Below are positions 3,625 through 14,750 of a stretch of DNA of 15,650 bases, piece after piece (the stretch's first letter is position 1; every line of letters starts with the position of its first letter). The stretch covers positions 1-15,650 of the forward strand of contig WJIV01000084.1 of the NCBI GenBank assembly GCA_014730055.1, in the 5' to 3' direction. The notes below the pieces were generated by a model. That model saw only the letters and a list, made by a program, of their open reading frames with translations. It did no database searches and was not told the origin of the DNA. The translations under genes were made by a program, and so were the position numbers. The DNA is from Candidatus Bathyarchaeota archaeon (GTDB lineage: Archaea; Thermoproteota; Bathyarchaeia; TCS64).

Positions 3625-4761
3625 ATGTCAGAACTATTAGAGGAACATGATAACCTGAAGATTTTGGAAGAGTTGGTATCGGGGAATGCTGTTAGTGTCA
3701 ACATTAGCGAACTTTCGAGGATTTTAGGTAAACATCGTAATACTATAAAAAAGAGTGTTGAGAAGCTATTCGAGCATAATATAATCGATAGGCCCTTCTA
3801 TCCCTTTCATGGATTATATAAGATCTATCCACTTTTAGCCGTTATATATTTAGATCTTCCCGAATGTAGGGAATGTACTGAGGATATAATAAAATGGATT
3901 AAAGAGGACCCACAAATATTTGCCGCATACCGTTCGAGGCAAGGCGAATATGACACACTATTATTCACTTATCATGAGAGCATAACATCTTACCAGCTCT
4001 GGATAGCGACTGTACCCAGCATATTAAAGATAAATTACGGGGTTGAGGAAGAACATGCACACTTCGAAATGAGTACAGCATACTTCAGTAATCAATTGAT
4101 GATCAAGTATAACCCCAGCACTGGGATAAATCTAATGGAGAGGGATTACAATAATAATGGTGAACTTGTTTTAAGAGGTCACAGTCTTGATCAGCTAGAT
4201 CTCGATATAATCCGGTGTCTTGTGAATGGAAAAGGGATCAAAACCAACACGACCCATCTATGCGATAAAACTGGGTTACACAGAAAGACAGTAGAGAAAA
4301 GAGTAAGCAGTATGATCGATGAAAGATTGATCTCTGAACCAGTATGCAGATTCCCAAATTTTTTCGTCCCTCCAAACTATCTACTTACATATATACTTGT
4401 TCAGTTCAGGGAGTTGGATGAGAGGATAATTAACGAGCTTATAATTGACCAAAATGTACCGATTGCGATACATACGATTTACGGTAGATATAATATGCTG
4501 GTTTTTGGTAACTTCAAAGACCTTGACGAGCACCTAAAGTGGGAAGAGAACTATAGAGTTCTTTTCCCTGAGAGCTTTGGTAGTGCACAGATAGTGTATC
4601 TGAGCCCCGAGATGACTATAAGCTTCAATCAGCAGATTGTTAGTCTAAGCTATATTCGTGGTAAACTGGGTAAAGAAGAGGAGATGGATCTCGGTAGAAC
4701 TATACGACAACTGGAGAGAGCCCGTGCCAGGGTGCTCTACAATTTACCCAAGGGCTCATGA
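3625..4761 (+). CDS. Tandem-duplicated winged-HTH transcriptional regulator
   Basis: A 378-residue protein built of two similar halves, each an HTH domain followed by a ligand-type alpha/beta domain, resembling a doubled Lrp-like regulator. HTH 1 is at about 10-56 (ELSRILGKHRNTIKKSVEKL) and HTH 2 at about 188-240 (HLCDKTGLHRKTVEKRVSSM). The following segments also align (IIDRPFYPF with LISEPVCRF). A CREC pair sits at C81 and C84 in the first half only. The start is supported by AGGTGA six bases upstream. The gene is transcribed away from the hydrogenase-like operon and shares its 227-bp intergenic region, so it may control that operon, itself, or both. A single chain with two HTHs could bind as a pseudo-dimer. 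The ligand is unknown, and it could instead act on distant genes. Confidence 0.8.
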   Translation: MSELLEEHDNLKILEELVSGNAVSVNISELSRILGKHRNTIKKSVEKLFEHNIIDRPFYPFHGLYKIYPLLAVIYLDLPECRECTEDIIKWIKEDPQIFAAYRSRQGEYDTLLFTYHESITSYQLWIATVPSILKINYGVEEEHAHFEMSTAYFSNQLMIKYNPSTGINLMERDYNNNGELVLRGHSLDQLDLDIIRCLVNGKGIKTNTTHLCDKTGLHRKTVEKRVSSMIDERLISEPVCRFPNFFVPPNYLLTYILVQFRELDERIINELIIDQNVPIAIHTIYGRYNMLVFGNFKDLDEHLKWEENYRVLFPESFGSAQIVYLSPEMTISFNQQIVSLSYIRGKLGKEEEMDLGRTIRQLERARARVLYNLPKGS

Positions 4762-4802: not shown

Positions 4803-5474
4803 ATGCTCTATGAGATACAGTTGATTATCTACGATATGGATGGGGTTCTAATAGACTCTACTGTTGCAATAAAGTCGGCTTTTATTGACTCATTTAATGA
4901 ACTAGGGCTAAAATATGATATTGATCTTGTAATGAAATTAATGGGCAACCCACTTAGAGTTATCTTAGATAGAACCCTGAGGGTTGAAGACGCACATTTC
5001 ATGGAGGAGTTCGTGGAATCATATAGAAGAAATTACGTTGAGCATCACTTGAGAGACCTCAAATTAATGGAAGACGTCCACGATACTCTACGATATTTCA
5101 AAGCCAGAGGATTCAAGCAAAGCATAGCGACAAATGGTTCATCGGCATTTATGAGACCGGTAATGGAGGAATTTGGTGTAATGAAGTATTTGGATCTCTT
5201 CCTTGGTTTTGATGATGCCAAGGTACCTAAACCTGATCCTAGGATCATAGATATGACCCTTGAAGAGTTGAATATCGATAAAAATAATGCAGTATTTGTT
5301 GACGACAGTGCTATTGGATTAGGTGCTGGGAAAAACGCCGGGGTTCATACAGTAGGTATAACCTCTGGCATACACACAAGAGAGCAGATAGAAGAAGCAT
5401 ACCCTGATTACATAATTGAGAGTCTCTTAGAACTCAAGAAAATAGTAAGCGTTGGTGCGACCGCCGGGATTTGA
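4803..5474 (+). CDS. HAD-superfamily phosphatase, subfamily IA
   Basis: A 223-residue HAD hydrolase with all four motifs: D11 and D13 in YDMDGVLIDS (nucleophile and acid), T110/N111 in SIATNGSS, K143 in VPKPDPR, and D167/D168 in VFVDDSAIGLGAG. A helical cap lies between motifs I and II (about 18-90), as in phosphoglycolate phosphatase and beta-phosphoglucomutase. The substrate cannot be read from sequence. It stands alone, 41 bp after the tandem HTH gene, and converges with the tRNA-Gly and histidine operon. Its final eight codons lie inside the 3' end of the opposite-strand tRNA gene (22-bp overlap with the CCA-containing gene). A natural core end near ELKKIVS suggests the tail is a tolerated extension. 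It could be a sugar-phosphate or glycolate-phosphate phosphatase, or less likely a second histidinol-phosphatase candidate. Confidence 0.88.
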   Translation: MLYEIQLIIYDMDGVLIDSTVAIKSAFIDSFNELGLKYDIDLVMKLMGNPLRVILDRTLRVEDAHFMEEFVESYRRNYVEHHLRDLKLMEDVHDTLRYFKARGFKQSIATNGSSAFMRPVMEEFGVMKYLDLFLGFDDAKVPKPDPRIIDMTLEELNIDKNNAVFVDDSAIGLGAGKNAGVHTVGITSGIHTREQIEEAYPDYIIESLLELKKIVSVGATAGI

Positions 5475-5527
5475 ACCCGGGCCGTCTGCGTGGCAGGCAG
5501 AAATCATAGCCTCTAGACTACGGTCGC
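5453..5527 (-). tRNA. tRNA-Gly (GCC), CCA encoded
   Basis: The minus-strand sequence folds as a complete tRNA. The acceptor GCGACCG (5527-5521) pairs with CGGTCGC (5463-5457). The anticodon arm is TCTGC-CTGCCAC-GCAGA, giving anticodon GCC. The T arm is CCGGG-TTCAAAT-CCCGG. The discriminator is A (5456) and CCA is encoded (5455-5453). There is no intron. The D stem is short, with a G-U pair. A TATA box lies 25-34 bp upstream. The gene is downstream of hisI on the same strand and overlaps the 3' end of the convergent HAD gene. Confidence 0.97.
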
Positions 5528-5590: not shown

Positions 5591-5941
5591 CTATGGATGA
5601 ACTTGAGGAAGTTTTTCGAGTCTTTTATGGAAACAGCTTTGTTCCCCAAGGTGGCAAGCGGGGCCTGTTTGTTCCACAAGGTAGAGGACTGCATCGTTAT
5701 CGCAGTCAGTTAAGACCTCTCTGATTCTCTGGACGTTTCCGCTGGTTACACCTTTCTTCATTATCTTACCGTGGCTCCTCCGATAGTAGTGTGCCCAGCC
5801 TGTCTCGAAAGTCTTCTGAAGTGCTTCCTTGTTAATGTATGCAAGTGTCAGTACCTCTAATGTGTCGGCTTCCTGTGTTATTACTGGTATTAGTCCATCC
5901 ATCTTATCCCAGTCTAGCTCATTGATTTTTACCTGTTTCAT
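5591..5941 (-). CDS. hisI: Phosphoribosyl-AMP cyclohydrolase
   Basis: This 116-residue protein opens the adenine ring of PR-AMP, the third step of histidine synthesis. The signature is complete: [37 protein letters not shown], and a metal site made of D79, C80, D81 and D83 (TDCDND) with C96 and C103 ([11 protein letters not shown]). The Cys spacing of 16 and 7 residues matches the known zinc site of the family. It is a stand-alone HisI with no HisE domain, unlike the HisIE fusion of many bacteria. It is the last gene of the operon, and its ATG overlaps the hisF stop by 4 bp. Confidence 0.97.
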
Positions 5942-6738
5942 ATTCGTATGTTCACCCCCTGATCTCTGAGATATTGTTTTACAGTCGAGACTGGATATTG
6001 ATCATAATGGAAAACTGAAGCAGCTAGAGCAGCATCTGCATTGCCTTCCTTGAAGGCATCTAGGAAATGCTTTGGCTCCCCAGCGCCACCACTTGCTATT
6101 AAGGGGACTCTCACCCTATCAGATATCGCTCTATTAAGTAAGTTATCATATCCCTGTTTTGTACCATCTCTATCCATTGAAGTTACCAGGAGTTCTCCTG
6201 CCCCCAGATTGACTACCTCTACAGACCATTCTAATGCGTCTATGCCTGTGGCTTTTTTACCACCATATGTATACACCTCAAACCAGCATGGGCCATCAGG
6301 AGCATCAACTAGCTGGTGGCCATCAAGTTTATCATACCTGCGTTTAGCATCTATGGCGATGACGACACATTGAGAACCAAAAGTGTCCGCTATATCAGTG
6401 ATTGCTTGGGGGTTCTCAACAGCTGCAGTATTAAGCCCAGTCTTGTCTGCACCATTCCTCAGGACCTCTCTAACGTCGTCTACGTTTTTGATGCCTCCGC
6501 CCACAGTAAAAGGGATATTTATTTGGGTAGCAACATCCCTGACTAGATATTTGAGGGTATCCCGTTTTTCCTGGCTGGCTGTAATATCCAAAAAGACAAG
6601 TTCATCCGCCCCGTCCTGATTATAGCGCTGGGCCAGTTCAACAGGATCTCCAGCGTCTCTAAGGTTTACAAAGTGTGTGCCTTTGACGACCCTACCATCT
6701 TTGATATCCATACAGGGGATGATGCGTTTTGCTAACAT
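5938..6738 (-). CDS. hisF: Imidazole glycerol phosphate synthase, cyclase subunit
   Basis: A 266-residue TIM barrel that pairs with HisH to make IGP and AICAR from PRFAR. The catalytic aspartates D11 ([15 protein letters not shown]) and D130 (VVIAIDAKR) are at the standard positions, and the phosphate loops FTVGGGIKN (77-85) and IASGGAGEP are intact. A short insert of about 10 residues (about 135-150) precedes [11 protein letters not shown] and is common in some archaea. An oddity: the usual DKVSINT strand reads DKTGLNT, with glycine at the place of a normally conserved serine (position 101). It overlaps hisA by 7 bp and hisI by 4 bp. Confidence 0.97.
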
Positions 6739-7448
6739 CTCTTAGCCTCCTCAAGTATCTCGGCCAAGCTGAGTTTCTTCTCATAAAGTGCTTTACCTAT
6801 TACAACAGCTTTTACTCCCGATGACCTCAGATCTGAGATGTCCTGGAGACTTGATACGCCGCCACTTGCTATTATGGAGGCCTTATCGCTTATTGTATTC
6901 ATGGTCCTGATATCCGGACCCTTCAATGTACCATCACGGGTTATATCTGTTACCAAAAACCACTCAAAACCGTCTGCGGTAAATCTCTCAAGAGCCTCAA
7001 TTATAGTTAATCCCCCTGACTTCTTCCATCCATCAATTTTGACTCTTCCTTTTTCATGGTCCAGAGCGATAATTACCCTATCAGACCCATATTCTCCAAG
7101 AATTAGCTTCGATTCCTCTGGGTTTTTAATAGGCATACTCCCCAATATGATTTTTTCAACTCCTGAGTCCAAAAAATACCTGGCTTTGGCTATTGTCCTT
7201 ATACCCCCACCTATTTGAATGGGGATTTCCAGGTTTTCGGAGATAGATATAATAATATCCTGATTATCCGACTTGCCAAAGACCGCATCCAGATCTATTA
7301 TATGAATACTATTAGCACCCTGTTTCTGCCAGTTAAGTGCAGCCTCCAAGGGGTTATCCATATATGTATCGCTTCTATCTGGGTCTCCCAAAGTGAGCCT
7401 GACGACCTTTTTATCCAGGATATCAATGGCGGGAATTATCTCGATCAT
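6732..7448 (-). CDS. hisA: Phosphoribosylformimino-AICAR-phosphate isomerase
   Basis: A 238-residue TIM barrel that isomerises ProFAR to PRFAR, the substrate of HisF/HisH. The N-terminal [19 protein letters not shown] carries the catalytic D9, and IALDHEKG carries the acid D130. The phosphate-binding GGGIR (80-84) and IASGGVSS loops and the [14 protein letters not shown] motif (166-179) are present. The length is normal. It lies between hisH and hisF with overlaps of 4 and 7 bp, so translation is probably coupled. It resembles HisA rather than the bifunctional PriA or TrpF. Confidence 0.96.
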
Positions 7449-8050
7449 ACTCTCACCATTGATGCAAAGTTTTCTAGCAGCCTAGCTCCGATTTCCCCAG
7501 ACTTTTCAGGGTGAAACTGTGTCCCTATGATATTCCCCCGTTCCACTATCGAGGTAAACGTTTTACCGTATGTCGTTACCGCCAGTATATCCTTTGAGTT
7601 CTCTGGCCTGGGGAAATAGCTATGAACGAAGTAGAAATAGCTCTCATCAGGGATGTCATTCAATATGGGGCTATCCCGCTTTCTTAATATTGTATTCCAG
7701 CCCATATGAGGAATCTTGACCTTTTCACTAAATTTTTTGACCTCTCCCTGGACCAACCCGAGTCCATCCCCCGGGCTTTCCTCACTACTCTCAAACAACA
7801 GCTGCATTCCAAGGCAACTACCTAAAAATAATTTACCTGAGGTAACTTCCTCGATAATAGTATTCTTGAGTGGGTCAAGTTTTCTTGCAGCTGGACCAAA
7901 ATTACCCACACCTGGGAGAACAATTGTATCTGATTTCTCAAGATCTTTGGGATTACTGGTGGTTTCTACCTTAAGTCCTGTCTTCTCTAGGGCTTTCGAG
8001 ATGCTGAAAAGGTTGCCTGCACCGTAATCGATTATGGCTGCTACAGTCAT
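7445..8050 (-). CDS. hisH: Imidazole glycerol phosphate synthase, glutaminase subunit
   Basis: A 201-residue class I glutamine amidotransferase that feeds ammonia to HisF. The catalytic triad is visible: C79 in FLGSCLGMQLLFE, H180 and E182 in GTQFHPEKSG. The IDYGAGN start and LPGVGNFG oxyanion region are typical, as is the HMGWN motif near 115-119. The residue before the nucleophile is Ser (GSCLG) where many homologues have Ile. It overlaps hisB and hisA by 4 bp each. Confidence 0.97.
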   Translation of the reverse strand: MTVAAIIDYGAGNLFSISKALEKTGLKVETTSNPKDLEKSDTIVLPGVGNFGPAARKLDPLKNTIIEEVTSGKLFLGSCLGMQLLFESSEESPGDGLGLVQGEVKKFSEKVKIPHMGWNTILRKRDSPILNDIPDESYFYFVHSYFPRPENSKDILAVTTYGKTFTSIVERGNIIGTQFHPEKSGEIGARLLENFASMVRV

Positions 8051-8628
8051 CTGGGCTCCCCCTTGCTGCTGGGAACACCCACTCTATTCGGATCAATCTT
8101 TATTGCATTACGTAAACAGATAGCCAATGCTTTGAATGCTGCTTCTGCTTTGTGATGATCATTTTTTCCGTACTTCACCTCAAGATGAATATTAGCCCTT
8201 AGTTCAGTAGCTAGGCTTTCAAAGAAGTGGGTCAAATCCTCAGATGGCGTACCCTCAACACTTGGAGCCTCCAGTCTAAGATCAATTATATGGTAGGGCC
8301 TCCCCCCTAAATCCACTGCACAACTAGCTAAGGAGCAATCCATAGGTACGGTTGCACTGCTGAATCTAATTATTTCTGGAGTTTCCTTCAAGGCCTCCAA
8401 TAATACTCTACCCAGACTGATGGCGACGTCCTCAATAATATGATGTTGTAAGTCTCCTTCAGCTTTCAATTGTATATCTATCAAGCTATGAGTGGACAGG
8501 CTGGTTAACATGTGGTCCAAGAAGCCACTTCCAGCATCTATTTGTGACACCCCTGTACCATCCAGGTTTACATTAACCTTGATTTTCGTTTCACGTGTGG
8601 TACGCTCGTATTGACTTTCTCTACCCAT
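8047..8628 (-). CDS. hisB: Imidazoleglycerol-phosphate dehydratase
   Basis: A 193-residue monofunctional IGP dehydratase. The manganese-binding and catalytic motifs are GFLDHML (D38, H39), QHHIIEDVAISLG (H62, H63, E66, D67), DLTHFFESLA (H134) and NDHHKAEAAFKALA (H158, H159, E162). It lacks the N-terminal HisN phosphatase domain of the enterobacterial HisNB fusion. Instead, a separate HAD phosphatase gene ends 8 bp inside its start. The order IGP dehydratase, then HisC, then phosphatase is the biochemical sequence, so the neighbouring genes supply steps 7 to 9. Confidence 0.97.
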   Translation of the reverse strand: MGRESQYERTTRETKIKVNVNLDGTGVSQIDAGSGFLDHMLTSLSTHSLIDIQLKAEGDLQHHIIEDVAISLGRVLLEALKETPEIIRFSSATVPMDCSLASCAVDLGGRPYHIIDLRLEAPSVEGTPSEDLTHFFESLATELRANIHLEVKYGKNDHHKAEAAFKALAICLRNAIKIDPNRVGVPSSKGEPR

Positions 8629-9763
8629 GTCGTATCTCCTCCAGTATTTGATGTAATTCGTTCACCGAAGGGGTTACAATATCGGATTCTGCCTCAATGA
8701 AAGATTGCTTGGATTCCTCAGGTAATGATGAGTGCCCATAAACACCTGCAAATAGAAACTTTGGTTCAATTTCCCATGTCTTCCTTGCCATTATCTTATC
8801 CGCCATAGTATCTCCAACATATAGGACCATATTGTAGGGGTTGTAGGGTTTTGATGCGCGTAAAAGCGGGTATGGATTCGGTTTATGAAGATCTGTTCGA
8901 CCGGTCTGCTTCATGGCTATATCAACGTTATCGTGCCAAACCATGGAATCCTCGCTAAAGTAATCTATCAAAGCACCTAAGGAATAACAGGCTGTGTTAG
9001 CTAGGCTCGAAGAGGCAATACCAACTCTATTACCAATCAATTTCGTTATGCCACTGAGGGTTTTCTTCTCTAATATAACATCATTTTTCTCTACTAGCCC
9101 CTCTTTTTCCACAATAAATTGTGGTTCTACCCCGAATGTCTCACTAAATAGTTCGGATCCTCCAAATATTTCCTCGAATAAAGTTGAGATTATACTTTCC
9201 CCTACACCTGCTCTATAATTGAGCGCCTTCTTAACGTTCTCACCCAGTATAGGACTTAGCACTCGGTCAACAGCTTCGACTCCTGATGAATCTAGTCTCG
9301 ATGTAAAGCTCAAAAGAGATTCGTATAGCTCTTTCTCATGGAAGTTGGCTGTGATTTTGTTTTCCTCTATGAAATTCAATCTTTCTGCTATGTTCTGAAG
9401 CTTTAATGATCTTTTTGATATTTTATCTATTTTCTGGAGGTTTTCAGGGGAAAGCTCTGATAGGGTCTTCATTACATATGCATATGTGTGAGTCCAGTCG
9501 TTGTTGAATCCCCCCGTCTTTTTGTAGGCGAAGTATAGCCTTTCGTCGAAAAAATCATCAGGAATTTTGTACCCGGTGAATGCTTCTATGAGTATGGATG
9601 ATGTTTTCGATACCGCGTTCTTATAGGATTCCCTGACATCCAGAAGTACGCCATCGCAGTCGAATACGATAACGTCGACTTTTTTGATATCGTCAATTCG
9701 GTCTTTCCTTATATAAGTGGGACCTTTATCCGAGTAGTATAACTCTATGTACTCTTTTTTCAT
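8621..9763 (-). CDS. HAD phosphatase within the his operon, candidate histidinol-phosphate phosphatase
   Basis: A 380-residue HAD subfamily IA-like protein. Motif I is VFDCDGVLLDV (D35, D37), motif II IASSS (249-253), motif III K294 in HKPNPYPLLRA, and motif IV VGDTMADKIMA (D318, D322). A very large cap of about 200 residues lies between motifs I and II and contains a GGFNNDW element (84-90). It resembles the HAD group named TIGR01548 in my memory (archaea and cyanobacteria), but I could not verify that. It overlaps hisC by 4 bp and hisB by 8 bp. No other gene in this operon encodes the histidinol-phosphate phosphatase step, and its place between hisC and hisB equals that of the HisN domain in HisNB. 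I infer a HisN role; the gene could instead be a different HAD enzyme captured in the operon. Confidence 0.85.
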   Translation of the reverse strand: MKKEYIELYYSDKGPTYIRKDRIDDIKKVDVIVFDCDGVLLDVRESYKNAVSKTSSILIEAFTGYKIPDDFFDERLYFAYKKTGGFNNDWTHTYAYVMKTLSELSPENLQKIDKISKRSLKLQNIAERLNFIEENKITANFHEKELYESLLSFTSRLDSSGVEAVDRVLSPILGENVKKALNYRAGVGESIISTLFEEIFGGSELFSETFGVEPQFIVEKEGLVEKNDVILEKKTLSGITKLIGNRVGIASSSLANTACYSLGALIDYFSEDSMVWHDNVDIAMKQTGRTDLHKPNPYPLLRASKPYNPYNMVLYVGDTMADKIMARKTWEIEPKFLFAGVYGHSSLPEESKQSFIEAESDIVTPSVNELHQILEEIRHG

Positions 9764-10857
9764 TTAATTACCTCTCCTAAAGCTGATATGAAGGCCTTGT
9801 TCATCGGTGCTGGGGCTACGGTTACCCTTAAGCATTCACTTGAACCAGGAACGTCTCCTATCTTCCTAACAACTACTCCCAAGTTAACAAGATCAGAGTA
9901 GACTTGCCTCATGGATTTCCTTGTGTTGAAGAGTATGAAGTTTGTTTCTGACGGGAATGCCTTTACCCCATCCATCTCGGATAGTTCAAGATACAGGTTA
10001 TCTCTAGCTTCTTTGGTCAACTGGATTTTTTCCTTGAAGTAATCAATTTTTTCCAAGATCTTCACACCCGTCTTTAGAGTTAATGAGGAGACAGGGTAGG
10101 GCATCATATACCGCTCATTGAGCAGTTCAGCGAGTTCTCTATTTGTAATGAGGTAGCCAAGACGCATTCCAGCCAATCCATATGCTTTAGAGAATGTCCG
10201 TAGAATCACTAGATTATCTCTGTCCTCAGCTTCTTCAATTAGGCTATATTTACTATATTCGGCATAGGCCTCATCTACTAAGACCATTCCTTCGTAATTA
10301 TCGACAAGCTCCATTACTGATTTTCTTTGAAACTGATTTGCTGTTGGGTTATTGGGATTGCATAGAATCAGGACTTTTGACTCTTTGTCAGTATTTGATA
10401 TGATATCATCTGGTTCGAAGCTGAAATCCTCTCTTAGCCTCTCTTCAACATAGTTGAAGCCCTTTATCATGCATGTTCGGGGATACATGCTGAAAGTTGG
10501 TGTGATAGCCTGCACCGTATCTCCAGGTCTAAGTGCAGCGGATAGGATCTGTTCAATTATTTGATCCCCTCCAGACGCGAGTACAATATTCTCGGGTTTA
10601 ACCTGATTTACCTCTGAGATGGCTTTTTTTAGCTCGTTTCCTTCATGCTGAGGATAAATTCTTGGGTCAACCTCATCAGACGCCTGTCTAATCAAGTCTG
10701 TAATGTAACTTCTAGGCACGAACAGGTTCTCATTTGCATTTAATTTTAGGATCTCGTTGGGATTCATTCCCAGTCTTTGAGCTAGTTCGTTTTCCCCTTC
10801 ACCTGTACTATAAGCCTCTACTGAGCTATACCTCTCTTTTAGTTCCTGGAGAATCAT
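9760..10857 (-). CDS. hisC: Histidinol-phosphate aminotransferase
   Basis: A 365-residue fold-type I PLP aminotransferase converting imidazole acetol phosphate to histidinol phosphate. The PLP lysine is K224 in RTFSKAYGLAGMRLGY. Supporting residues are N170 (CNPNNPT), D195 and Y198 (VDEAYAEYS), R232 and the LNANEN start (39-44). The phosphate-site SGGDQIIEQ (95-103) is typical of HisC. The C-terminal substrate arginine lies in CLRVTVAPAPMN, where many homologues read LRITVG. The 4-bp ATGA overlaps on both sides place it between hisD and the HAD gene. Confidence 0.96.
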   Translation of the reverse strand: MILQELKERYSSVEAYSTGEGENELAQRLGMNPNEILKLNANENLFVPRSYITDLIRQASDEVDPRIYPQHEGNELKKAISEVNQVKPENIVLASGGDQIIEQILSAALRPGDTVQAITPTFSMYPRTCMIKGFNYVEERLREDFSFEPDDIISNTDKESKVLILCNPNNPTANQFQRKSVMELVDNYEGMVLVDEAYAEYSKYSLIEEAEDRDNLVILRTFSKAYGLAGMRLGYLITNRELAELLNERYMMPYPVSSLTLKTGVKILEKIDYFKEKIQLTKEARDNLYLELSEMDGVKAFPSETNFILFNTRKSMRQVYSDLVNLGVVVRKIGDVPGSSECLRVTVAPAPMNKAFISALGEVIK

Positions 10858-12137
10858 TTTAATCTAGCCTCCAAAGCAAGATAGTGGTTTCTCAGACCCT
10901 CGGCTTCTGCTAGAGCTCTGATATGCCCCTCGATTTCTCTGAGACCTTGTTCCTCTGCTCTGATTATAGATATAGGTTTAACAAAGTCAAGGACCGACAA
11001 ACCAGAACTTATTTTCGCGTATCCCTCTGTTGGAAGTATGTGGTTTACGCCCATGCAGTAATCGGTAGATGATACAGGGGTATATGATCCAAGGAGCACC
11101 AGTCCAGCGTTTCTAATTTTATCTAGTATATTTTCTGGTTTTTTGATAATTATCTCAAGGTGTTCGGGGGCAAACTCGTTTGCAAATTTAATGGCTGTAT
11201 CGAGGTTGTCTACGGTGTAGATGAATCCGCCCTCATCGAGTACGCTCTTAACAGTAGATTTATTGTAGACATTCTCCAGGTTTCTCTCAATTTCTTTCGC
11301 GACTTGATTGGCTAGGCTTTCTGATACAGTAACAAGCCCAGATAGACCACCCTGACCATGCTCAGCCTGGCTTATTAGATCTTTTGATACCAGAACAGGA
11401 TCTGCGGTCTCATCTGCGATTATTAGTATCTCACTCGGTCCAGCCGGCTTATCGATGGCAACTATGTCCGATACCTGTCTTTTAGCCTCTGTTACGTATC
11501 TATTTCCGGGTCCTACAATCTTATCCACCTTTTTAATTGGTTTTATACCATAGGCCATGGACGCTATGGCCTGTATCCCTCCCAGCTTGTAGATCTTATC
11601 AACCTCACAAATATCCGCTGCGACCAATATTATCGGGGCGACCTTTCTGTCCTTACCCGGTGGAGTACAAACTATGACCTCATCAACCCCAGCTACCTTC
11701 GCCGGTGTGACATTCATTACCAGTGTGCTGGGGTAGAGAGCCTTCCCTCCCGGTACATAGCATCCAACTACACTTAGGGGTCTTGTGGAGCATCTTATCT
11801 CAACTCCTTTAAGATTCATATTGAAGTTCTGCTGCTCCAACCGTAGAGATTCTACTTTCTCTAGGCGCTTTTGCGACTCCTTAATCGCCATAACCTGCTC
11901 ATCGGTCGTTTTCTCGTAGGCTCTCTTAATCTCCTCTTCATTTACTTGAATGTTCTCCGGTTCAAGGTTTATCTCATCGAACTTTTCAGTGTACTCAAGA
12001 ACAGCGTCCAGCCCTCGTGATTTTATATCCTCGAGTATCCTTGATGTGTATCGTGCTAACTCATTACTCTCAATGGATATGTTCGGCCATCGGTTTGCCA
12101 GTATTTCACTGGGCTCCTCAGTGTACCTTTTAATCAT
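10854..12137 (-). CDS. hisD: Histidinol dehydrogenase
   Basis: A 427-residue zinc- and NAD-dependent enzyme that oxidises histidinol to histidine in two steps. Zinc ligands are Q257, H260, D359 and H418; the catalytic pair is E325-H326 in FAPEHLE. The IVGPGNRYVTEAKRQV motif (207-222) is complete. A variant: the segment after the zinc histidine reads AEHGQGGLSGLVT, while most homologues read AEHDP or similar. It overlaps hisG and hisC by 4 bp each. Confidence 0.97.
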   Translation of the reverse strand: MIKRYTEEPSEILANRWPNISIESNELARYTSRILEDIKSRGLDAVLEYTEKFDEINLEPENIQVNEEEIKRAYEKTTDEQVMAIKESQKRLEKVESLRLEQQNFNMNLKGVEIRCSTRPLSVVGCYVPGGKALYPSTLVMNVTPAKVAGVDEVIVCTPPGKDRKVAPIILVAADICEVDKIYKLGGIQAIASMAYGIKPIKKVDKIVGPGNRYVTEAKRQVSDIVAIDKPAGPSEILIIADETADPVLVSKDLISQAEHGQGGLSGLVTVSESLANQVAKEIERNLENVYNKSTVKSVLDEGGFIYTVDNLDTAIKFANEFAPEHLEIIIKKPENILDKIRNAGLVLLGSYTPVSSTDYCMGVNHILPTEGYAKISSGLSVLDFVKPISIIRAEEQGLREIEGHIRALAEAEGLRNHYLALEARLK

Positions 12138-13114
12138 TCCCGGTTCTCCGAGACAATTTCTTCAAGGGGTAGCACCTGCCTGGGTTCATATACAACCAGG
12201 CCCTGAGATAGCTCCCTTAGTGTTGGAAGTATCTCAAGGAACCTAGGTTTATCTATGACTGTGTTTATTGCGCACCAATTTGGATCGCTTAACTCGCTAA
12301 TTGTGGGGCGTTTCAGAGCAGGTAACTTTTCTAGTAATTCTCCTAGATTTGACTTCTCTACGTTGGCAAAGATATGTAGCTTTTTGGCACCATCAACTGC
12401 CCCTCGGAGAAGAGTGAGGATATCCATTATCTTTGTTTTCTTCTCCGGATCTCTCAGGCTCTCCTTGTTGGCTATCAATAGGGCGCTGGTTCTCATAACC
12501 TCCTCAATAATTTTCAAACCGTTCTGCTGCAGACTTGTCCCAGTCTCGACGACCTCTATTATTGCATCAGCGTCTTCCGGTGGCTTCGCCTCGGTAGCAC
12601 CGAAGCTTAGATAGATGGCTACATCCTCATTCTCTCCGGTTCTCCACCAAGGAGTTACGGTCACTGGTGTAGAGCCCCCGTAAATCTGCTTGTATACCGG
12701 GTTTTTCATCAGATAGTCTTTGGCAGAGTTGAGGTACTCGGTGCTTATCCTTAGAGTCTCACCATTCTCTCTCTTGAGACTTAGAAGGTCGGATAGGTTG
12801 TTTATCTCTCTCCAACTCTCGGGTACGGCGACAACGAGCCTAACCTTGCTATATTCGAGGTCCAAGAGGACCTCGACATCTGCCCTGTTCTCGTTGACCC
12901 AGTCTCTACCACTGATGCCTACATCCTGGACGCCCTCACTGACGTACGTCGGTATCTCCTGGGGCCTCAGTATCTTGAGTTCTATTCCTGAGTCGTTTAT
13001 TCGAGGTCGGTAGGTCCTGTCATGGCCTGTTATTTGGTATCCTGCTCTCTCGAGGATCTTGAAAGTCTGTTCTCCTAGGTGTCCTTTAGGTAATGCAAAA
13101 TTTACTTTTCTCAT
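12134..13114 (-). CDS. hisG: ATP phosphoribosyltransferase, long form
   Basis: This enzyme joins ATP and PRPP in the first, rate-controlling step. I chose the ATG at 13114 (326 aa): the protein then begins MRKVNFALPKGHLGEQTF, the family start, with AGGA about 10 bases upstream. An in-frame ATG at 13219 would add 35 hydrophilic residues without family similarity. The PRPP motif VETGTSLQQNGL is at 189-200. There is an unusual insert of about 28 residues at about 155-182 (WWRTGENEDVAIYL onward). The C-terminal part (about 245-320) fits the regulatory HisG_C domain that allows histidine feedback, so no HisZ is needed. It is first in the operon and overlaps hisD by 4 bp. Confidence 0.94.
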   Translation of the reverse strand: MRKVNFALPKGHLGEQTFKILERAGYQITGHDRTYRPRINDSGIELKILRPQEIPTYVSEGVQDVGISGRDWVNENRADVEVLLDLEYSKVRLVVAVPESWREINNLSDLLSLKRENGETLRISTEYLNSAKDYLMKNPVYKQIYGGSTPVTVTPWWRTGENEDVAIYLSFGATEAKPPEDADAIIEVVETGTSLQQNGLKIIEEVMRTSALLIANKESLRDPEKKTKIMDILTLLRGAVDGAKKLHIFANVEKSNLGELLEKLPALKRPTISELSDPNWCAINTVIDKPRFLEILPTLRELSQGLVVYEPRQVLPLEEIVSENRE

Positions 13115-13219
13115 GTTTACTTCCTGTGGGTCTGGATGGGATTTTAGCCTAGTATCCACTGCATTCGTTGTATACTCAGAAGGATTTTTCGTGGATTTCG
13201 ATGGCTTAGAATTTTTCAT

Positions 13220-13597: not shown

Positions 13598-14020
13598 ATG
13601 AAGCGTACAGTAATTGACGGAGAAGGCCTCATACTTGGAAGGTTAGCCAGTAATGTAGCTAAGAGGCTTCTTGAGGGCGAAACTATTGATATTATCAATG
13701 CCGAGAAGGTTGTAGTCTCAGGGGATCGTCAGAGGGTAATCGACGAGAGAAAAGAGTTCCTCAACACGGGAGGCCATGGGAAAGGACCTATTCATTACAG
13801 GCAGCCTCATCGTATAGTACGGAGGACAGTAAGGGGAATGCTCCCACACCGTAAGAGCCATGGAAGAAAAGCGTTTAGCAGGCTCAAAGTGTACATAGGG
13901 GTACCAAATGAATTCGAAGGCGTGGATATGGAAACGTTCCCAAAGATCCATGCTAGCAACCTTGGTAAGAGATACGTGACCATTGGAGAGATCGCTGAGA
14001 GCATAGGCTGGAGGAAGTAG
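13598..14020 (+). CDS. rpl13: 50S ribosomal protein uL13 (L13)
   Basis: A 140-residue archaeal L13 of the large ribosomal subunit. The motifs GEGLILGRLASNVAKRLLEG (8-27), INAEKVVVSG, GPIHYRQPHRIVRRTVRGML and PHRKSHGRKAFSRLKVY are clear. The start has AGGT seven bases upstream. It is the first gene of a small ribosomal operon, and its TAG is directly followed by the uS9 ATG. The usual archaeal upstream partner eL18 is absent here. Confidence 0.97.
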   Translation: MKRTVIDGEGLILGRLASNVAKRLLEGETIDIINAEKVVVSGDRQRVIDERKEFLNTGGHGKGPIHYRQPHRIVRRTVRGMLPHRKSHGRKAFSRLKVYIGVPNEFEGVDMETFPKIHASNLGKRYVTIGEIAESIGWRK

Positions 14021-14431
14021 ATGTCAAGTAAGAAAAAGATGGTTCTGGCCACCGGGAAGCGTAAAACGAGCAAGGCTCGCGTAGTGGTCAGTGAGGGCAA
14101 GGGTAGAGTTAGAATAAATAATACACCTGTACACCTGATTGAACCCTGGATAGCGAGGCAGAAGATCATGGAGCCATTGCTACTATCAGGGGAATATAAG
14201 GACCAGGTGGATATCAAGATAAATACAGAGGGCGGAGGCTTCATGAGTCAGGCCGAGGCAGCCCGTATGGGAATTGCCCAGGGCTTAGTCAAGTTCACAC
14301 GGAGCAAGAAACTACGCAGCAAGTATATTGATTACGACAGAACCATGCTAGCGGGTGATGCCAGGCGCAAAGAGTCCAAGAAATTCGGTGGACCAGGTGC
14401 CCGTAGGAGAAAACAGAAAAGCTACAGGTGA
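14021..14431 (+). CDS. rps9: 30S ribosomal protein uS9 (S9)
   Basis: A 136-residue protein of the small subunit head. It has the ATGKRKTSKARVVVSEGKG start, a GGGFMSQAEAARMGIAQGLV core and the basic tail ending KSYR that reaches the P-site tRNA. It directly follows uL13, the near-universal uL13-uS9 pairing. The TGA is part of the AGGTGA ribosome site of the next gene, so translation is probably coupled. Confidence 0.97.
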   Translation: MSSKKKMVLATGKRKTSKARVVVSEGKGRVRINNTPVHLIEPWIARQKIMEPLLLSGEYKDQVDIKINTEGGGFMSQAEAARMGIAQGLVKFTRSKKLRSKYIDYDRTMLAGDARRKESKKFGGPGARRRKQKSYR

Positions 14432-14435
14432 TCTC

Positions 14436-14750
14436 ATGGTAAGAAATATCACACCAATTGTAAAATCGGATGACCGCTGGCGAGATGGTAGAGGTTTCAG
14501 CATCCCCGAACTCAAAGAAGCTGAAATCAGCGTATTTGAAGCTCGGAGGATCGGCGTACCCGTAGACACTCGTAGAAAGTCAAGTATTGATGAAAATATC
14601 GACGAACTCAAAGACTACATCGAGGAAGCCAGAGAAGCAGGAATAAGATATTCTAAGCCGAAGCATGAGACAAAGCCTCAAACCGGGCGTGCTTATAGGG
14701 GTCTAACAGCTTCAGGTAAGAAGATGCGTAATCTCGGTCATAAGAAGTAA
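14436..14750 (+). CDS. rpl13e: 50S ribosomal protein eL13 (L13e)
   Basis: A 104-residue protein. Its middle section reads WRDGRGFSIPELKEAEIS, then ARRIGVPVDTRRKSSIDENI and DELKDYIEEA. This matches the eukaryotic L13e core of GRGFxxxELKAAGI, ARxIGIxVDxRRxNxSxE and LKxY. I chose the ATG at 14436 because AGGTGA lies four bases upstream and an earlier in-frame ATG (14355) sits deep inside uS9. The tail is basic and hydrophilic. The usual archaeal occupant of this slot is the RNA polymerase subunit RpoN, which is not here. In archaea eL13 is known mainly from crenarchaeal-type lineages, so it is also a taxonomic clue. Confidence 0.88.
   Translation: MVRNITPIVKSDDRWRDGRGFSIPELKEAEISVFEARRIGVPVDTRRKSSIDENIDELKDYIEEAREAGIRYSKPKHETKPQTGRAYRGLTASGKKMRNLGHKK

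Follow-up and report, generated by a model that had tools for sequence, protein, structure and literature searches.

The question raised by this locus is which enzyme removes the phosphate from histidinol phosphate in an archaeal his operon whose hisB encodes a dehydratase only. Histidinol-phosphate phosphatase (HolPase, or HisN) is the most frequent low-confidence step of amino acid pathways in GapMind (42 of 148 organisms), and Synechococcus elongatus has HisN among its gaps, according to an excerpt of PMC7311316. Excerpts of PMC3189178 and PMC9012536 describe the step as missing in Thermoproteus tenax, Archaeoglobus, methanogens and ANME, and in the study of PMC9012536 HolPase is unannotated in all the ANME and methanogen genomes. 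Bifunctional HisB, as far as the available portion of PMC11237513 goes, has not been reported in Archaea. The stretch of DNA analyzed here (hereafter the window, 15,650 nucleotides, with Bathyarchaeota as its nearest named relatives) contains a phosphatase gene of the HAD superfamily inside a his operon. We consider it quite probable that its product serves as a non-orthologous HolPase of this operon where the histidine pathway exists: HolPase is its most likely function because of the place of the gene, the breadth over which that place is kept, and a process of elimination.

The his operon of the window and its HAD protein

Nine genes occupy the minus strand in the order hisG-D-C-HAD-B-H-A-F-I. 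Overlaps are found at the eight junctions, and measure 4, 4, 4, 8, 4, 4, 7 and 4 bases from hisG to hisI. Gene identities were taken from Pfam and NCBIfam. The operon starts with hisG, which includes a HisG_C domain (12134..13219), and continues with hisD (10854..12137) and hisC (9760..10857; TIGR01141, 296.8 bits, cut-off 276.55). The HAD gene (8621..9763) encodes a 380-aa phosphatase with a large helical cap, a predicted HolPase on the basis of Pfam, NCBIfam, a structure model and conservation of its slot. It is followed by a 193-aa, dehydratase-only hisB (8047..8628), by hisH (7445..8050), which matches PF00117 as a GATase only and owes its name to position and size, by hisA (6732..7448; TIGR00007, 241.4 bits, cut-off 228.95), by hisF (5938..6738; TIGR00735, 381 bits, cut-off 294.55), and by a monofunctional hisI of 116 aa that encodes the cyclohydrolase part only (5591..5941). 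The HAD gene thus overlaps hisB on one side and, on the other, hisC, the gene for the enzyme that produces histidinol phosphate; several archaeal groups share this position.

A sequence-only reading of the window had described this order, with an overlap at each junction, as that of an enterobacterial operon with an unfused HAD in the HisN slot. The description stands when compared with hisG-D-C-B-H-A-F-I of Escherichia coli K-12, with the qualification that both HisB and HisI are bifunctional in E. coli and hisI of the window is monofunctional. The operon is divergent from genes for ribosomal proteins L13, S9 and L13e; rpl13 (13598..14020, plus strand) is its divergent neighbor, and the L13e gene lies at 14355..14750. 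On the other side, a second HAD gene, phosphoglycolate-phosphatase-like (4803-5474, plus strand), converges on hisI, and the 3′ end of its reading frame is overlapped by a tRNA-Gly (gcc) gene (5453-5527, minus strand). Also near the operon, a 378-aa protein encoded at 3625-4761 (plus strand) has a match to an AsnC-type helix-turn-helix just below the cut-off.

The HAD of the operon contains the motifs FDCDGVLLD, GGFNNDW, GIASSS, KPNPYP and GDTMAD, and matches PF00702 with 34.4 bits (cut-off 26.4). In a structure model with a pLDDT of 96, residues 46-210 form helices only, and are placed between core strands 29-34 and 247-250. With the motifs of the superfamily and a helical insertion that separates motif I from motif II, the protein qualifies as a capped HAD; the large cap and the GGFNNDW element had already been noted in the sequence-only reading. 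Among the best 120 homologues listed, 106 match all four motif patterns used.

HAD-IIIA enzymes, the type to which HisB-N belongs, are not known to have a large cap. HisB-N and HAD-IIIA HisN (TIGR01261, TIGR01656) resemble the window HAD in superfamily, in operon place (as part of HisNB) and in the reaction proposed; the window HAD differs from HAD-IIIA by its cap. Neither of these two models matches the window protein at E 1e-3, and neither do TIGR01856 (PHP-type HisJ) and TIGR02067 (IMP-type HisN); in two relatives, TIGR01656 reaches 19-20 bits, with a cut-off of 84.15. BLAST comparison with HisB-N and with SerB of E. coli gave nothing significant. The best NCBIfam match is TIGR01548, with 60.6 bits (below the cut-off of 140.2). 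Six relatives score 43.5-76.3 bits with this model, and a cyanobacterial homologue (L050) scores 210.8. In profile-profile comparison, the profile of the family aligns with seven cyanobacterial-type TIGR01548 sequences over 238 columns (probability 99.5) and with two HAD-IIIA proteins over only 43 columns of common motifs. Judged from these profile matches and the null BLAST result, the window HAD is no detached HisB-N; it is a HAD with a cap, and TIGR01548 is its nearest curated neighbor. The difference from the HisN domain of HisNB claimed by the sequence-only reading is therefore supported at the subfamily level, and the HAD would represent an independent recruitment to the HisN role.

TIGR01548 (HAD-SF-IA-hyp1) is a ‘hypothetical equivalog’ and states no function. 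It has D-V-x-x-S-Y and N-N-D-W elements in common with the window HAD, whose cap is much longer. In the class of the cyanobacterium G015, 22 of 25 genomes have a match that exceeds the cut-off of this model. Structures 1qyi (Q8NW41) and 6iah (phosphatase Tt82 of Thermococcus thioreducens) show 17-24% identity to the HAD, a likeness of fold that shows no function. None of 600 pattern matches on viral contigs encodes a relative of the HAD, PHROGs contains no family for it, and the ribosomal stretch has no match among plasmids.

Linkage of the HAD family to hisB

The sequence-only reading had proposed a search for linkage of the HAD family to hisC and hisB in other genomes, and such linkage was found. 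A pattern scan yielded at least 51 HAD loci from named genomes among the matches listed, and in 45 of these 51 the HAD lies directly before hisB, with no more than 260 bases between matches. The arrangement is hisC-HAD-hisB in 40 loci, hisD-HAD-hisB in three and HAD-hisB in two; three more loci end at the HAD. The remaining three have no his neighbor: one is from Bathyarchaeota (L002), and the other two, cyanobacterial (L050) and proteobacterial (L051), are short, distant matches. Record titles of the listed loci name Bathyarchaeota, Thaumarchaeota, Nitrosopumilus, Nitrosotalea, Calditenuaceae, Jordarchaeia and a Blastocatellia bacterium. On the contig of the latter, an acidobacterial one (L027), the order is hisG-D-C-HAD-B-H-A-F-I, the HAD occupying its usual position.

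Genome searches gave a similar picture, using E 3e-27 or better as the definition of a strong HAD match (the next-best genomes had E 4.7e-9 in the 151-genome search and 6.0e-9 among relatives of G002). In the phylum of G004, represented by 151 genomes, 59 have a strong HAD match and 122 match PF00475, the HisB family. The HAD is upstream of the hisB match, at a distance of 142 bases or less, in 47 of the 59. In the other 12, hisB is elsewhere (ten genomes) or not found (two); one of the 12, G100, retains hisG-hisD-HAD together. Genomes with the HAD away from his genes are G030, G058, G076, G136, G148 and G142. The Asgard-type phylum of G007 (79 genomes) has 12 strong matches, ten of them between hisC and hisB; of the other two, one follows hisC at the end of the locus and one (G224) is beside the his cluster on the opposite strand. 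Among 71 relatives of G002, 18 of 23 strong matches are in a his place. Minimum completeness was 90 in the 151-genome searches for the HAD, PF00475 and HisN types, and 80 in the search of the Asgard-type phylum. The linkage between the HAD and hisB is far beyond chance, and homologues are not found mostly outside his operons.

Other arrangements were observed as well. Two Asgard-type loci outside the above counts (L102 in G209 and L103 in G248) have a weak HAD match (E 2e-12) between hisC and hisB. In L012, L019, L039 and L179-L182 the HAD comes directly after hisD, with no hisC match between them. Clusters of the type hisC-HAD-hisB-hisH-hisA are found in L131 (G054) and L133 (G040), whose genomes have no PF00815 HisD match.

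Other phosphatases and other missing steps

At the genome level the HAD and HisB co-occur: PF00475 is matched in 57 of the 59 genomes with the HAD (Fisher p 3.5e-5), four of these 57 matches being divergent and found in genomes without HisD. For comparison of rival HisN types we used the 118 genomes with a true HisB, divided into 53 with the HAD and 65 without it. Over the cut-off, the 151 genomes contain no IMP-type, nine PHP-type and three HAD-IIIA HisN; the respective figures for 14 control genomes are two, six and four, the IMP cut-off being so strict that only two of the controls pass. PHP-type HisN is found in one of 53 genomes with HAD and HisB (G088) and in eight of 65 with HisB only (p 0.04); for HAD-IIIA the figures are two of 53 and one of 65. 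When any recognized HisN is considered, they are three of 53 versus nine of 65 (p 0.22). Recognized HisN types are thus absent from 56 of the 65 genomes that have HisB and lack the HAD. Absence of other HisN types is therefore weak evidence for the HAD as HisN, since genomes without the HAD are mostly devoid of a recognized HisN too and the IMP cut-off is strict. Furthermore, the phylum of G004 must contain other HolPases, since the HAD is lacking in 65 of the 118 genomes whose HisB is a true one.

Individual candidates were also inspected. G088 has the HAD in its operon plus a HisJ-family PHP protein. The HAD-IIIA matches in the HAD-bearing genomes G110 and G116 have GmhB as their best model. 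Where the HAD is of the short Nitrosopumilus type, matches to TIGR02067 reach about 117-138 bits (cut-off 275), and an IMP-type rival was rejected there: for all three IMPases checked, CysQ is a better-scoring model than HisN. None of the three matches the motif-5 pattern GDx[YFWH], and two have Asp-x-Tyr at the corresponding place, so that motif 5 decides nothing in these proteins. An IMPase of G138 has HisN as its best model (155.6 bits, below the cut-off), and may be a rival HisN in that genome. An IMPase of G052, a genome without a strong HAD match, scores 168 bits with the HisN model and best as FBPase/IMPase.

A step other than HolPase might also be assigned to the HAD. No hisE is seen in the operon of the window, which leaves both the HisE and the HisN step there without an assigned gene; HisI has about 106-128 aa in the window and in most related loci, with no hisE seen nearby in loci of the window and Nitrosopumilus types. 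The HAD might thus stand in for HisE as phosphoribosyl-ATP pyrophosphohydrolase. HAD pyrophosphatases do occur among its structural neighbors, and hisE is absent in N. maritimus according to an excerpt of PMC9012536. We regard this substitution as very improbable, however, since in eight loci where the HAD precedes hisB (L013, L081, L168-L172 and L184) HisI is immediately followed by a HisE domain. Two of these loci were scanned with PF01503 (75.7 and 63.9 bits) and the other six were detected by tblastn; as the search involved two HisE queries at E 1e-4, eight may be an undercount.

The HisE-bearing loci also permit an argument by elimination. L184 has G-D-C-HAD-B-H-A-F-I-E in a row, with a weak HisG match (E 2e-19). 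There, the HAD is the sole gene without a known step and HolPase is the sole step without a gene, which supports the view that the HAD is the HolPase. L081 has the same gene set, except that no hisC was detected in the interval from hisD to the HAD; the other six loci have no HisG match in the stretch examined.

The HAD in genomes without the histidine pathway

A gene for HolPase would be expected to disappear along with the pathway, and nine genomes depart from this expectation: G002, G268, G271, G273, G070, G106, G130, G154 and G160 retain the HAD and lack full-length HisA/HisF. HisD is also missing in eight of them; G268 has a lone hisD (L144, 7275-8549, minus strand), 57% identical to that of the window, with no other his gene within the 15 kb examined. 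In a HisA/HisF search of 26 chosen genomes, 16 gave matches at about E 1e-76 or better (the weakest being G270, 1.3e-76). The best values were E 2.7e-7 to 4.8e-6 in G002, G268 and G271, 3.8e-6 in G272, and 2.8e-10 to 9.3e-13, covering at most a third of the model, in G070, G106, G130, G154 and G160; G273 gave none. Eight of the nine genomes without the pathway have weak PF00977 matches, at best 26-48 bits over about 59-79 of 228 positions, which pass the Pfam cut-off of 23.6. These were not counted as HisA/HisF because full-length proteins reach about 140-293 bits and similar weak matches occur in genomes that do have HisA/HisF. The HisD, HisA/HisF and G002-relative searches had no completeness minimum, and genes missing elsewhere in G002, G268, G271 and G273 could reflect assembly gaps; the adjacency of the HAD and rpl13 was read directly from contigs.

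In the latter four genomes (L002, L143, L145 and L146 among the loci) a lone HAD gene lies beside rpl13-rps9 and divergent from it, at the position that hisG occupies in the window and in G270, and the his operon is absent from the locus. Across 128 codons, the HAD copies of G002 and G273 agree at 76%; their dN of 0.137 and dS of 1.906 (the latter close to saturation) give a ratio of 0.07, a sign of purifying selection. If the pathway was lost before these two lineages split, such selection would have kept the HAD since then. A relative of the second HAD gene of the window (4803-5474) is also found near the HAD in L002 and L145.

A separate HAD clade is formed by L068-L075 (G148, G070, G106, G130, G154, G142 and G160). 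A gene of 1134-1216 aa adjoins the HAD in six of these eight loci, and in four of the five genomes G070, G106, G130, G154 and G160 the HAD is preceded by one that encodes about 1,200 aa; the 1,134-aa equivalent in G148 (L068, the only one scanned) reads as reverse gyrase, with topoisomerase, Toprim and DEAD domains. HisD is missing in five of the seven genomes, and five have a weak IGPD match only (49-99 bits). Two further genomes show irregular operons. In G272 (L114), hisC and an intact HAD precede a shortened hisB and only the tail of hisF; either this operon is decaying or two sequences were joined in assembly. G270 (L147, L148) has a degenerate HAD fragment without a cap after hisI; other his genes remain, and the hisC-hisH stretch is unassembled.

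Retention of the HAD after loss of the pathway in some lineages leads us to expect a second function or substrate. HisN is probably not the whole function of the HAD: the pattern says that it does something else too, or did something else first. The proposal of a non-orthologous HisN made by the sequence-only reading is thus supported in part: broad operon linkage and a subfamily different from HisB-N agree with it, and it did not foresee retention of the HAD without the pathway.

One interpretation is that the HAD is not the HolPase at all, and acts upon another metabolite in housekeeping or in the repair of a side product. Its presence in the operon would then serve co-regulation, and an unrecognized phosphatase would dephosphorylate histidinol phosphate. 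The nine genomes that retain the HAD, the low dN/dS ratio in two of them, and the second HAD gene, which adjoins the operon in the window and is also seen close to two of the four lone HAD genes, are in its favor. We find it unlikely, however, as the hisC-HAD-hisB place persists across Bathyarchaeota, Thaumarchaeota and Asgard-type archaea, and the HisE-bearing operons leave no other gene for the HolPase step.

A somewhat less doubtful idea, compatible with a HolPase function, is that the enzyme is dual and acts upon both phosphoserine and histidinol phosphate, so that serine synthesis retains the gene after loss of the his genes. Both substrates contain R-C(NH3+)-CH2OPO3. Phosphoserine is the natural guess for a second substrate because an excerpt of PMC5764234 proposes a HolPase role for phosphoserine-phosphatase-like HADs, likewise not HisB-N, of Burkholderia, Pseudomonas, Marinobacter and Herbaspirillum; for three of the four bacteria there are mutant fitness data. 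The portion of G002 available (1.07 Mb, about 45%) has a single SerA-like match and no match with SerB of E. coli. This portion is less than half of the genome and has no SerC match either, which limits the weight of the missing SerB. Against the idea, the window HAD shows no significant similarity to E. coli SerB, the one enzyme of the phosphoserine phosphatase type with which it was compared.

As a HolPase, the HAD may operate according to the general scheme of HAD enzymes, from which the following residue roles are borrowed. Asp35 would attack the phosphate of histidinol phosphate and Asp37 would act as acid/base, with Ser251 and Lys294 holding the phosphate and Asp318/Asp322 binding Mg2+. 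The cap, with its GGFNNDW element, might close over the imidazole and the amine end, and the product, histidinol, would pass to HisD. At least one further physiological phosphate ester may be a substrate, as suggested by retention of the enzyme after pathway loss.

Names given to the family offer no hint of this function. In the best 120 rows of each of two protein listings, none mentions histidinol, and the names shown are of the kind ‘HAD family hydrolase’, ‘TIGR01548 family’, ‘phosphoglycolate phosphatase-like’ and ‘hypothetical protein’. An oomycete fusion between a HAD and IGPD was sought in the accessible part of PMC2705460 and not found there; the portions of open-licence PMC literature available do not name this HAD family as HisN. 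An excerpt of PMC5516325 names a monofunctional HAD-type HolPase in Thermococcus onnurineus, which is archaeal like the enzyme proposed here. HAD-type HolPases are therefore already known, and the capped HAD of the window would be a further, differing candidate type.

A broader and tentative speculation is that a single HAD family, akin to cyanobacterial TIGR01548, is the long-missing HolPase of Nitrosopumilus-type ammonia oxidizers, many Bathyarchaeota, Asgard-type archaea and perhaps cyanobacteria, and that its dual specificity, with phosphoserine as first guess, permits the gene to outlive its own operon beside rpl13. With a candidate that is conserved and operon-linked in widespread archaea, the HolPase gap becomes testable, and genomes that keep the HAD without the his genes provide a natural test for hidden second jobs of pathway enzymes.
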